Below are positions 355 through 34,322 of a DNA stretch of 64,000 bases, in pieces (within the stretch, counting starts at the first letter, position 1; every line of letters begins with the position of its first letter). The notes under the pieces were generated by a model that did no database searches, was not told the origin of the DNA, and saw only the letters and a program-made list of their open reading frames with translations. The DNA is from Enchytraeus crypticus. Taxonomy: Eukaryota > Annelida > Clitellata > Enchytraeida > Enchytraeidae. Position numbers and translations under genes: made by a program. The stretch covers positions 1,880,001 to 1,944,000 of the forward strand of contig CAJHZI010000204.1 of the NCBI GenBank assembly GCA_905160935.1, in the 5' to 3' direction.

Positions 355-598
355 AGCCTCTATCTTAGCAGCCTGAGCCTTGAGGCGAGCCTGTTCCACT
401 GCTGCCTCGCCCTCGATACGATTAGCCTCAGCGCGGGACAGGGCCTCGGCCTTCGCCTGCCCGGTGCTCTCCACGGCGGCGCTGTGGGCCTGCAGCTCCA
501 GCAGCTCCTTACGAGCCTTCTCCGCCTCCGCCTCGTCCGTGATCTTCTGCCGCTCCAGCCTGCCCTTAGCCTCCTGCTCCAGCCTCTCAGCCGTGTGC
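355..598 (-). CDS. MVP: MVP exon 11 (cap helix, residues 668-749)
   Basis: Acceptor CCCGCAG at 600-599, donor GTGAGT. It encodes [18 protein letters not shown], then [20 protein letters not shown] and [10 protein letters not shown], the long charged cap helix. The gene continues beyond the left edge; reading past 355 in frame soon reaches a stop, as expected for intron. Confidence 0.93.
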
Positions 599-32200: not shown

Positions 32201-34322
32201 AATTCTATTTTAATCACTTTTCTGTCATTTTTATCGCTCATCTGCCTCGTTTAGTGATCAGGTTTTCTTGCCAGTAATTGTTTTACATCTTAGCTTTTAC
32301 ATATGCCAAACATTTAATTGTACTGATGTTGTAGTTACGACTATGAGAATTGTTCATCATAGGATGTATAACATTTAATTGTACTTATTGTACTGATGTT
32401 ATAGATACGACTATGAGAATTGTTCATCAGAAGATGTATAACATTTAATTGTACTTATGGTACTGATGTTATAGATACGACTATGAGAATTGTTCATCAG
32501 AAGATGTATAACATTTAATCGCTCTGATGTTAAAGATAACTCTGATCTGATTATGAGATCTCTCTATCAATAAATCTGACTATGAGAATTGCTCGTCAGT
32601 GGATGTTAACATTTAATTGCACTTATGTTATAGATACGACTATGAGAATTGCTCATCAGAGGGCGCTAACATTTAATTGTACTGATGTTACAAATACGAC
32701 TATGAGAATTGCTCATGAGGGGATGTTAACATTTAATTGCACTGATGTTATAGATACGACTATGAGAATTGCTCAACAGAGGGAGGTGAGGGTATGATAA
32801 CTCACCTGAATCAGCTCATCAGTGATCCAACCATCGTGGGCAGAGTCTACGAGCTTGACGGCAAGACCTTCACTGTTGCCAGTGCTGCTGACTTCAGTTA
32901 TACTGATCCTATAGATGGCAGCGTCGCTGATAATCAGGCTCGTTTCTTTAGCGATATTAACTTATGATTATGTTTACAGACCTTTTCGTATATCGTCTGT
33001 CAGGTCTCAATGCTAACTTAAGTCTGTTAGTTACTTTTCAATTAATCAATCAATAAGAATTTAACGTCCAGTTCCTCGCCATAAGGCAATGTCAGGGACG
33101 TCTCTTGCAGACACTACACAAACAGGCGTCAAAGCACCACGCGATGACGACTGAGTACACAGAGACCACAGTGCAAGTCCAAGATCCAAGGCAAGCGGGT
33201 CAACATTTAGACCTATGGCGGAAAGAGATGGGTTTTTAGATTGCCAAGGAAAGTACCAATACAATTATAAGATCGAAGGTCTTGTGGCAGAGAGTTCCAT
33301 ATAGTCGGAGCAGAAAACATGAAGGGGCGTCTGCCCATGGCAGATTTAATATTTGGTACAGTGAGAAGGTTAAATTATAAACATTCTAGATTTAAATTTT
33401 ATTCAGTTTTGTTGACTGAAATTGTGCATTGATTGATTCAATCATGAATTTATTTCATGCAGGGCATCATGATAACGCTTATTATTAACTAGTTTTGCTT
33501 GTGCAGGGCATCATGATAACGTTTGAGGACGGGTCTCGTATCGTGTACAGGATCAGCGGGACGGGCAGCAGCGGGGCGACTCTGCGTCTCTACATCGACA
33601 GCTACGAGTCACATGAAGACCTCGTCGAGAAGGAGGCTCAGGTTCGTCTGACCTAGTGTTTGATCGCGAGTCACGTGACGTTCTCATCCAGCTGCAACAA
33701 ATCATTTAGAGCTCCATTTAGAAGATTATATACATATTCTTAGTTGTTTTGAAGAGCCAGACTCGCATATCACTGTGCTGATAGACTAGCTAAACTGTCT
33801 CCAAGTTCTTGTCTAATCGTTTTATAGACAATGTGTCTAAACTTGATGATTAGAATGAATGTTGTGTGATGATAAAGATGTGCTGCAATGTTTCTCGTGC
33901 ACAGGTGCTGCCCTCTCGTGTTTTTGTATTTTATGTAGTTTTAAAGTCTGCTTTTTGTCAAAAAGACCGAAGCCATTTAATTTAATTTAATTTAATTGAA
34001 GTTGATGAGGAAAGCACTGGTTTGAATCCTGCTCTTACTGATCCACTGTCGAACTACTTGCCTACAAGCCCCTGTCTCAGCTCAATGGCAAGAATAATTT
34101 CTATAGCTGTAGGGCCTATAATCCAATTATGCTGGTATATTGTTTTAGACCCCTAGTTATCCCTGTAGCAGCTGTTATCTAGATGACGTAAATGTAGACG
34201 TAGAGCTAGGCTTTTTATGGTTCTGTGTACAGGAAATGCTACAGCCGCTGGTCGGTATAGCCCTGGAGATGTCTCAGCTACAGCAGTTCACTGGGCGAGA
34301 TGAACCCACTGTGATCACCTAG
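26038..34322 (+). CDS. PGM1: Phosphoglucomutase-1, complete, 10 exons, 566 aa
   Basis: PGM1 interconverts glucose 1-phosphate and glucose 6-phosphate in the cytosol, linking glycogen and glycolysis. Exons are 26038-26289, 26788-26950, 27415-27693, 29138-29328, 29989-30143, 30715-30846, 31618-31737, 32754-32937, 33507-33641 and 34233-34322 (1701 nt, 566 codons plus stop; vertebrate PGM1 is 562 aa). Visible signatures are the phosphoserine loop TASHNPGG (Ser119), the magnesium loop DGDGDR (292-297), the sugar-binding loop GEESFG (379-384) and the phosphate-binding loop RISGTGS (507-513). All catalytic elements are intact, so the enzyme should be active. Four of nine introns carry duplicated copies of the downstream acceptor region, and intron 8 appears to use a GC donor. 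A TATA box lies about 45 bp upstream of the ATG. The gene is divergent from MVP. Confidence 0.97.
26788..26950 (+). CDS. PGM1: PGM1 exon 2 (catalytic serine)
   Basis: Acceptor AATGTAG, donor GTTGGG. It encodes [20 protein letters not shown], then [13 protein letters not shown] and [10 protein letters not shown]. Ser119 in TASHNPGG is the residue phosphorylated in the catalytic cycle. Confidence 0.96.
27415..27693 (+). CDS. PGM1: PGM1 exon 3 (residues 139-232)
   Basis: Acceptor TATAG, donor GTGTGT. It encodes [20 protein letters not shown] through [18 protein letters not shown] and [11 protein letters not shown], domain 1 to 2 of the enzyme. Phases at both ends agree with exons 2 and 4. Confidence 0.95.
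28590..28645 (-). mobile_element. SINE-like family G fragment, PGM1 intron 3
   Basis: TAACGTCCATTTCCTCATAC and GATGATGTCAGGGAC resemble the conserved end of family G at 33048. Confidence 0.45.
28764..29180 (+). repeat. Six-copy 68-bp array of the PGM1 exon 4 acceptor and exon start
   Basis: Exon-like starts at 28798, 28866, 28934, 29002, 29070 and 29138 (real), an exact 68-bp period. Each unit is a GATTGATTACTGACACGTTG-type intron segment, TTATAG or TTGTAG, then about 41 nt of exon 4 ([13 protein letters not shown]). In the five upstream copies the exon frame runs into TGA soon after DEL. Confidence 0.97.
29138..29328 (+). CDS. PGM1: PGM1 exon 4 (residues 232-295)
   Basis: Acceptor TTGTAG, donor GTATGT. 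It encodes [36 protein letters not shown] and FAFDGDG. It is the last of six tandem copies of its own first 41 nt plus acceptor (68-bp period). Only this copy continues into the conserved downstream sequence, which identifies it as the genuine exon. Confidence 0.95.
29989..30143 (+). CDS. PGM1: PGM1 exon 5 (residues 296-347)
   Basis: Acceptor TCTGCAG, donor GTTAGT. It encodes [20 protein letters not shown] through [14 protein letters not shown], completing the DGDGDR metal loop begun in exon 4. Confidence 0.96.
30715..30846 (+). CDS. PGM1: PGM1 exon 6 (residues 347-391)
   Basis: Acceptor ACGCAG, donor GTGTGT. It encodes [20 protein letters not shown], then [22 protein letters not shown] is the sugar-binding loop. 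Neither edge carries a duplicated boundary. Confidence 0.96.
31428..31660 (+). repeat. Degenerate copies of the PGM1 exon 7 acceptor and exon start
   Basis: TGTAATAGAGAGAAGGATGG (real, 31611) is echoed by TGTAATAGAGAAAATGATTG 95 bp upstream, followed by AGCCTGACTCTCC versus AGCCTGGCTCTC. A weaker third copy (CCCTATCTGATCTCTCTAT at 31438) lies about 203 bp upstream. Confidence 0.7.
31618..31737 (+). CDS. PGM1: PGM1 exon 7 (residues 391-431)
   Basis: Acceptor TAATAG, donor GTAAAC. It encodes [20 protein letters not shown], then [18 protein letters not shown]. Degenerate copies of the acceptor and exon start lie about 95 and about 200 bp upstream. Confidence 0.95.
31800..31925 (-). mobile_element. 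Diverged SINE A, PGM1 intron 7
   Basis: GCTAAAGTCCTATTAAACGA, TTCCTGTCTCGAAAGCATAT, GGATTTGAACAG and TACTGATCCACAACGGAACT follow the family order. Confidence 0.6.
32310..32790 (+). repeat. Multi-copy array of the PGM1 exon 8 acceptor and exon start
   Basis: ATACGACTATGAGAATTG-type starts after TAG at 32335, 32405, 32475, 32634 and the real 32754. Additional units near 32545 and 32575 are degenerate, and the unit at 32694 has ACAA in place of the acceptor AG. Period is 70 distally and 60 proximally. Each carries YDYENC-like codons followed by a stop. Confidence 0.93.
32754..32937 (+). CDS. PGM1: PGM1 exon 8 (residues 431-492)
   Basis: Acceptor GTTATAG; the exon ends AATCAG before GCTCGT, so a GC donor is inferred because the next exon begins exactly where the family continues. 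It encodes [20 protein letters not shown], then [12 protein letters not shown] and [15 protein letters not shown]. The acceptor and first bases are repeated several times upstream. Confidence 0.9.
33048..33385 (-). mobile_element. SINE-like family G, long copy in PGM1 intron 8
   Basis: Begins AATTTAACGTCCAGTTCCTC, GCCATAAGGCAATGTCAGGG, the reverse complement of 5520-5595, preceded by CAATCAATCAAT. About 330 bp. A 67-codon minus-strand frame inside it has no recognisable product. Confidence 0.65.
33446..33525 (+). repeat. Duplicated 3' splice site plus start of PGM1 exon 9
   Basis: TGCAGGGCATCATGATAACG occurs ending at 33477 and again ending at 33521 (real), spacing 44. The upstream copy reads GIMIT then LIIN and stop. 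Confidence 0.93.
33507..33641 (+). CDS. PGM1: PGM1 exon 9 (phosphate-binding loop)
   Basis: Acceptor GTGCAG, donor GTTCGT. It encodes [20 protein letters not shown], then [22 protein letters not shown] binds the substrate phosphate. A copy of the acceptor plus 15 exon bases lies 44 bp upstream. Confidence 0.95.
34233..34322 (+). CDS. PGM1: PGM1 exon 10 (C-terminus and stop)
   Basis: Acceptor GTACAG. 29 codons encode [19 protein letters not shown] then GRDEPTVIT, and the TAG stop is at 34320-34322. The terminal PTVIT is the conserved end of PGM1. Confidence 0.96.
   Translation, partial: EMLQPLVGIALEMSQLQQFTGRDEPTVIT

Follow-up and report, generated by a model that had tools for sequence, protein, structure and literature searches.

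The closest described counterparts of the elements reported here are the 'mirages' of amphioxus, minisatellite-like tandem duplications that comprise an intron–exon boundary, at acceptors as well as donors, with units of 10–160 bp; the accessible portions of the two reports place them in Adh3, the globins BflGb6 and BflGb9, TnC and PGBD5 (PMC3087553, PMC3902484). According to the same portions, AG or GT is kept in many, not all, copies, regular splicing is said to be undisturbed as checked by reverse-transcription PCR, and length instability was seen (PMC3087553, PMC3902484). Here, we analyzed a window of 64,000 nt from the annelid Enchytraeus crypticus (positions 1,880,001 to 1,944,000 of contig CAJHZI010000204.1, assembly GCA_905160935.1), in which tandem arrays lie across splice sites of MVP and PGM1, together with eight genes elsewhere in the same assembly (524,188,772 bases in 802 contigs). 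The PSMD2 protein encoded in this assembly groups with that of the leech Helobdella in a clade of five rows (support 100/100), and the group of four rows containing both has support 96/80. Judged by their anatomy as read from the DNA, the worm arrays are of the mirage kind, in a distant phylum. Their units comprise the intron–exon boundary (22/158 splice sites), both boundary types are hit, the unit lengths measured by script (26–157 bp) fit the range given in those portions of the amphioxus reports, and many, not all, copies keep AG or GT. The differences are that the host is an annelid and not a cephalochordate, the cephalochordates being taken here as the known range of mirages and not as part of their definition, and that the worm arrays occur in seven of ten sampled genes, were measured against a background and show an acceptor excess.

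A literature search that reached few subscription journals found no reports of boundary-spanning tandem copies outside amphioxus. Repeated splice donors at one boundary of a single gene are known from the human IFI6 variable number tandem repeat, which that search did not show. Among clitellate annelids, minisatellite arrays have been described in intron 1 of earthworm metallothionein; unlike those of E. crypticus, they are not described as splice-boundary copies in the accessible part of the report (PMC12783039).

PGM1 (26038..34322, forward strand; 10 exons, start to stop) carries such copies at four acceptors. Acceptor-plus-exon-start copies had been claimed for its exons 4, 7, 8 and 9 in a first-pass annotation of the window, and both a script and alignments bore them out. 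At exon 4, a 68-bp array (28764..29178; first exon base 29138) consists of units of ~27 bp of intron end plus 41 bp of exon start and contributes five surplus acceptors, or decoys, with TAG intact in each. A 95-bp duplication over the exon 7 acceptor (31499..31640; first exon base 31618) provides one decoy and looks older, at 0.81 identity. The exon 8 acceptor lies in a 60/70-bp array (32309..32783; first exon base 32754) in which AG is kept in 4/6 aligned copies, and at the exon 9 acceptor (33458..33524; first exon base 33507) two copies 44 bp apart are alike over just 23 bp. Genome-wide, the exon 4 unit matched its own array alone and is thus locus-specific, which rules out a dispersed repeat as its source; the first-pass annotation had excluded a single dispersed repeat altogether, a claim that stands for this one unit. 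The exon 8 donor (window 32937-32938) is apparently GC (CAG/GCTCGT), a weak match.

In MVP (355..16466, reverse strand; exons 1–11 of 13 modelled, exons 12 and 13 lying beyond the window start), the same anatomy appears at donors. An 83-bp array covers the exon 7 donor (3520..3770; last exon base 3742) and supplies two decoy donors, AG/GTGAGC, and a 64-bp duplication that includes (ATCA)n covers the exon 10 donor (804..932; last exon base 912) with one decoy, in agreement with the exon-end-plus-donor copies reported earlier at both exons. A further copy, proposed for the exon 5 acceptor (6075..6167; first exon base 6089), is present 62 bp upstream in the intron but marginal: it is alike over 15 bp, falls short of the score of 18 required in the counts given below, and goes undetected there. 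Across the other six sites in the two genes, the spanning copies hold the splice signal plus 18–41 bp of exon. The translated exon models of both genes aligned near end to end with PDB chains of MVP and PGM1; the exon-proximal sites are those used in the models and give proteins without inserts, as is also the case for PSMD2. Matches for PGM1 and PSMD2 included no E. crypticus transcript among the best 120. Separately, a 29-bp piece from the interior of MVP exon 5 (window 5964-6089) is recopied 668 bp away, at ~6633-6666 in the intron upstream; this copy bypasses the splice site and is the sole exon-interior copy found in introns outside spanning arrays.

Five blocks of 40 kb, taken unseen from round-number positions on four further contigs, extended the sample. 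Tandem clusters in these blind blocks numbered 3.25 to 5 per 10 kb and covered 7 to 12% of the DNA, in line with the earlier remark that intronic tandem repeats are common here; two order-2 Markov sequences of window length gave zero clusters each. Several of 27 exons or exon groups chosen by coding potential in the blocks and the window flanks adjoin arrays. Outside the window, gene-finder predictions (a weak intron penalty over-predicted and was followed by a stricter run) were replaced by protein homology. Ten genes were counted, with a site scored as spanned when an array covers at least 5 bp of its exon side. In addition to MVP and PGM1 (6/42 sites, including the two MVP exons beyond the window), these were PSMD2 (6/38), ANKRD13 (4/22), a Cys-loop receptor (1/12), a Ras-like gene (0/6), agmatinase (2/10, all fetches), a C11orf54-like gene (0/10, with one array abutting), CCT4 (2/16) and CCT5 (1/2). 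One ANKRD13 exon is flanked at both ends, by an 80-bp array on the acceptor and a 64/122-bp array on the donor (joined block 13038-14144, G000:C421). The rest of agmatinase, the C11orf54-like gene, CCT4 and CCT5 were added by later fetches, and the 32 last-fetched sites were obtained when the pattern had already become clear. Not counted were the coiled-coil and Ser/Thr-rich genes of the window, whose splice sites are not fixed by homology, a C11orf54-like intron with an undetected exon and several items from the blind blocks: a C2-domain gene, an ASIC-like gene, a G-protein-coupled receptor fragment and weak predictions. Among these, an array in the C2-domain gene stops 6 bp short of a predicted acceptor, and the four predicted exons of the ASIC-like gene have no array within 60 bp.

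Outside the window, 16/116 sites were spanned (13/58 acceptors and 3/58 donors). Over all ten genes, the 22 spanned sites divide into 17/79 acceptors and 5/79 donors (Fisher P = 0.010). Two null models were applied. The first takes the density and unit length of intron-interior arrays (21 outside the window, 28 in all) and predicts 2.1 spanned sites outside the window against the 16 seen (P = 9.5e-10; P = 8.9e-6 with the expectation doubled) and 2.8 against 22 overall (P = 4.9e-13; doubled, P = 1.4e-7). Non-gene DNA of the blind blocks gave a similar background of 3.0 expected per 158 sites, and the 32 last-fetched sites, taken separately, yielded 5 spanned against 0.58 expected (P = 3.4e-4). 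A gene bootstrap on the sample as it stood without CCT4 and CCT5 put the excess over this null at 4.3 to 15.6. The second, conservative null re-places each of the 57 arrays inside its own intron. It predicts 9.6 against 22 (P = 5.4e-6) in all, 7.2 against 16 (P = 1.7e-4) for the 41 arrays outside the window and 2.4 against 6 (P = 0.01) for the 16 arrays within it. An excess of boundary-spanning arrays is therefore supported, its magnitude varying with the null chosen; together with the acceptor bias, the excess over either expectation supports a boundary-linked component. Composition was rejected as a cause, as arrays per tile vary by no more than ~1.5-fold between own GC contents of 0.25 and 0.5 (higher under 0.25).

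Several results weigh against a special role of the boundary. Doubling the conservative null, to allow for slower decay next to conserved exons, raises the expectation to ~19 spanned sites against the 22 seen (P = 0.29). The comparison of splice sites with random intronic positions that the first-pass annotation had proposed, run in the window as a coverage-type test against 1200 random intronic positions per gene, showed no difference of this kind: the script scan found boundary-spanning copies at 7/39 sites (the marginal MVP exon 5 copy included), and 19% (MVP) and 13% (PGM1) of the random positions scored, that is, no enrichment. We rely less on this test, since boundary-anchored arrays with many copies push up the intronic percentages. 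GlyR, Rap, AGMAT (one intron at the time) and the C11orf54-like gene alone gave 1/24 against 0.23 expected (P = 0.21), and the whole sample comprises ten genes only.

The copies themselves were characterized in 17 spanning and 20 interior arrays, the set available before the rest of agmatinase, CCT4 and CCT5 joined the sample. Divergence is no higher in spanning than in interior arrays (identity 0.90 versus 0.87, P = 0.34), an argument against longer survival as a full explanation, and the units of spanning arrays are longer (68 versus 58 bp, P = 0.009), as expected from sampling by length. AG or GT was intact in 28/31 alignable decoys, drawn from 13 of the 17 arrays, against ~76% expected (P = 0.037). 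Before CCT4 and CCT5 were added, 57 decoys, preselected to have AG or GT intact and no fewer than 18/28 positions matching, were scored with a small splice-site matrix built from MVP and PGM1; 27 of them equaled or beat the real site. The predicted use of any of the 57 would add a stop codon, and the decoys could therefore not serve protein diversity; such stops are largely expected, because the inserts are AT-rich and mostly frame-shifting. The decoys show no visible sign of purging, an indication that most of them go ignored, for example through exon definition that prefers the site beside the exon body.

We consider it probable that these arrays are minisatellites of the mirage type, local tandem duplications that lie across a boundary, survive on the intron side only and arise or persist more often at exon edges, chiefly at acceptors. 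The observations underlying this reading are the anatomy of the copies, their recurrence in unrelated genes, the locus specificity of one array, the excess over the intron-interior rate and the preponderance of acceptors over donors. Tandem duplication would be frequent across the genome, and copies lying wholly inside an exon would be lost to selection. A duplication straddling a boundary would keep the real site in place at the edge of the exon and drop the surplus copy into the intron, where this copy, a splice signal with 5–59 bp of exon, would be free to expand and drift. The arrays would be mutational in origin and neutral, and their excess would reflect a bias of duplication or of retention at exon edges. 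Such a bias seems needed, either in duplication at exon starts or in retention, since neutrality alone predicts neither an excess over interior arrays nor an acceptor bias. It may be connected with transcription or with splicing at 3′ splice sites, and RNA polymerase pausing at these sites is one candidate source of the acceptor bias. A stronger form of the argument, which we advance tentatively as possible, would make 3′ splice sites above all hotspots of germline tandem duplication through a transcription- or splicing-coupled process; with 17 of the 79 acceptors sampled lying in arrays of their own copies, about one in five, the spliceosome would regularly have to choose among near-identical sites.

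Uniform duplication followed by survivorship could leave a similar picture, the spanning copies being the tolerated ones among those that touch an exon and staying visible longer since the exon copy is held constant. The first-pass annotation had leaned toward such a uniform process with intron-side survival over a splice-linked one. The lean finds backing in the heavy array load of the five blind blocks, the negative coverage-type test and the doubled placement null, which expects 19 sites against the 22 seen; it conflicts with the interior-rate null, which leaves 2.8 expected against 22 and remains at P = 1.4e-7 even when doubled, and it gives no reason for acceptors to outnumber donors or for spanning arrays to be no older than the rest. 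We regard pure survivorship as rather unlikely. The splice-linked process likewise held in part, as a boundary-linked component supported by 22/158 sites against 2.8 or 9.6 and by the acceptor bias (Fisher P = 0.010), an excess that the doubled conservative null would absorb.

A functional account would have the decoys kept for regulated unproductive splicing, their use bringing a stop codon and lowering expression. The stop added in 57/57 scored decoys, the 27 that score at or above the real site and a retention of AG or GT slightly above that predicted from other positions are what this account would lead one to expect, yet the stops are expected from AT-rich, mostly frame-shifting inserts anyway, the scored decoys had been chosen with AG or GT intact, and the host genes are unrelated housekeeping genes with widely varying copy numbers; we consider it improbable. 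Wrongly expanded repeats in the assembly are a concern in that tandem arrays are hard to assemble and copy numbers may be wrong, but copies within arrays differ by scattered substitutions and several contigs show the same pattern, which makes an artefact very improbable. Least probable of all, in our view, is that the arrays mark introns newly made by tandem duplication of exon segments. This is a proposed route to new introns, one put forward for mirages in the accessible portion of the amphioxus work (PMC3087553), and like the process considered here it is a tandem duplication carrying splice signals. It makes a new intron inside an exon, however, and would leave both intron ends resembling the opposite flanking exons, whereas the worm copies sit within pre-existing introns of several hundred bp and the resemblance observed is with the adjoining exon, at a single end.

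Other arrays reach an acceptor without entering the exon, as the first-pass annotation had noted for MVP exons 3, 6 and 11 and one exon of the coiled-coil gene, and these too were recovered. On the reverse strand of MVP, a 26-bp array (617..804) extends up to the exon 11 acceptor (first exon base 598), the acceptor tract itself looking like an imperfect last copy; a (TTGA)n microsatellite (5045..5137) extends up to the exon 6 acceptor (first exon base 5039); and a 52-bp array (8937..9294) reaches as far as the acceptor AG of exon 3 (first exon base 8935). A second piece of the latter, with the same unit, lies at 10866-11123, divided from the first by an insert (window 9295-10865) with an open frame at 9577-9885 that is THAP-like by eye. 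In the coiled-coil gene, also on the reverse strand, a 28-bp array (59103..59293) stops ~5 bp short of the AG of an acceptor (first exon base 59103) whose exon is not fixed by homology. Elsewhere in MVP, window 11390-12490 of intron 2 holds a broken reverse-transcriptase-like stretch, LINE-type by eye, and a 36-bp array of ~15 copies (window 16862-17420) begins ~400 bp upstream of the start codon.

The motif GATTGATT or AATCAATC is present within the final 60 nt of 9/60 introns of the ten counted genes whose acceptor lies outside arrays, compared to 6/287 random 60-nt intron windows (P = 1.7e-4) and 1/74 intron starts. The animal branch-point consensus is yUnAy, which TTGAT fits, and (TTGA)n tracts such as that at window 5045-5137 may serve as a row of candidate branch points. 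As a trigger of duplication, GATTGATT was rejected, being found in 5/22 spanning and 6/35 other arrays with no clear difference.

Earlier descriptions of boundary-spanning minisatellites concerned a few genes of a single chordate group. Their presence at 22 of 158 annelid splice sites, above the intron-interior rate and biased toward acceptors, suggests a general genomic process. If true genome-wide, the arrays would provide natural experiments on how the spliceosome chooses among near-identical acceptors, and would bear on splice sites as fragile DNA, on intron growth and, possibly, on the origin of new introns.

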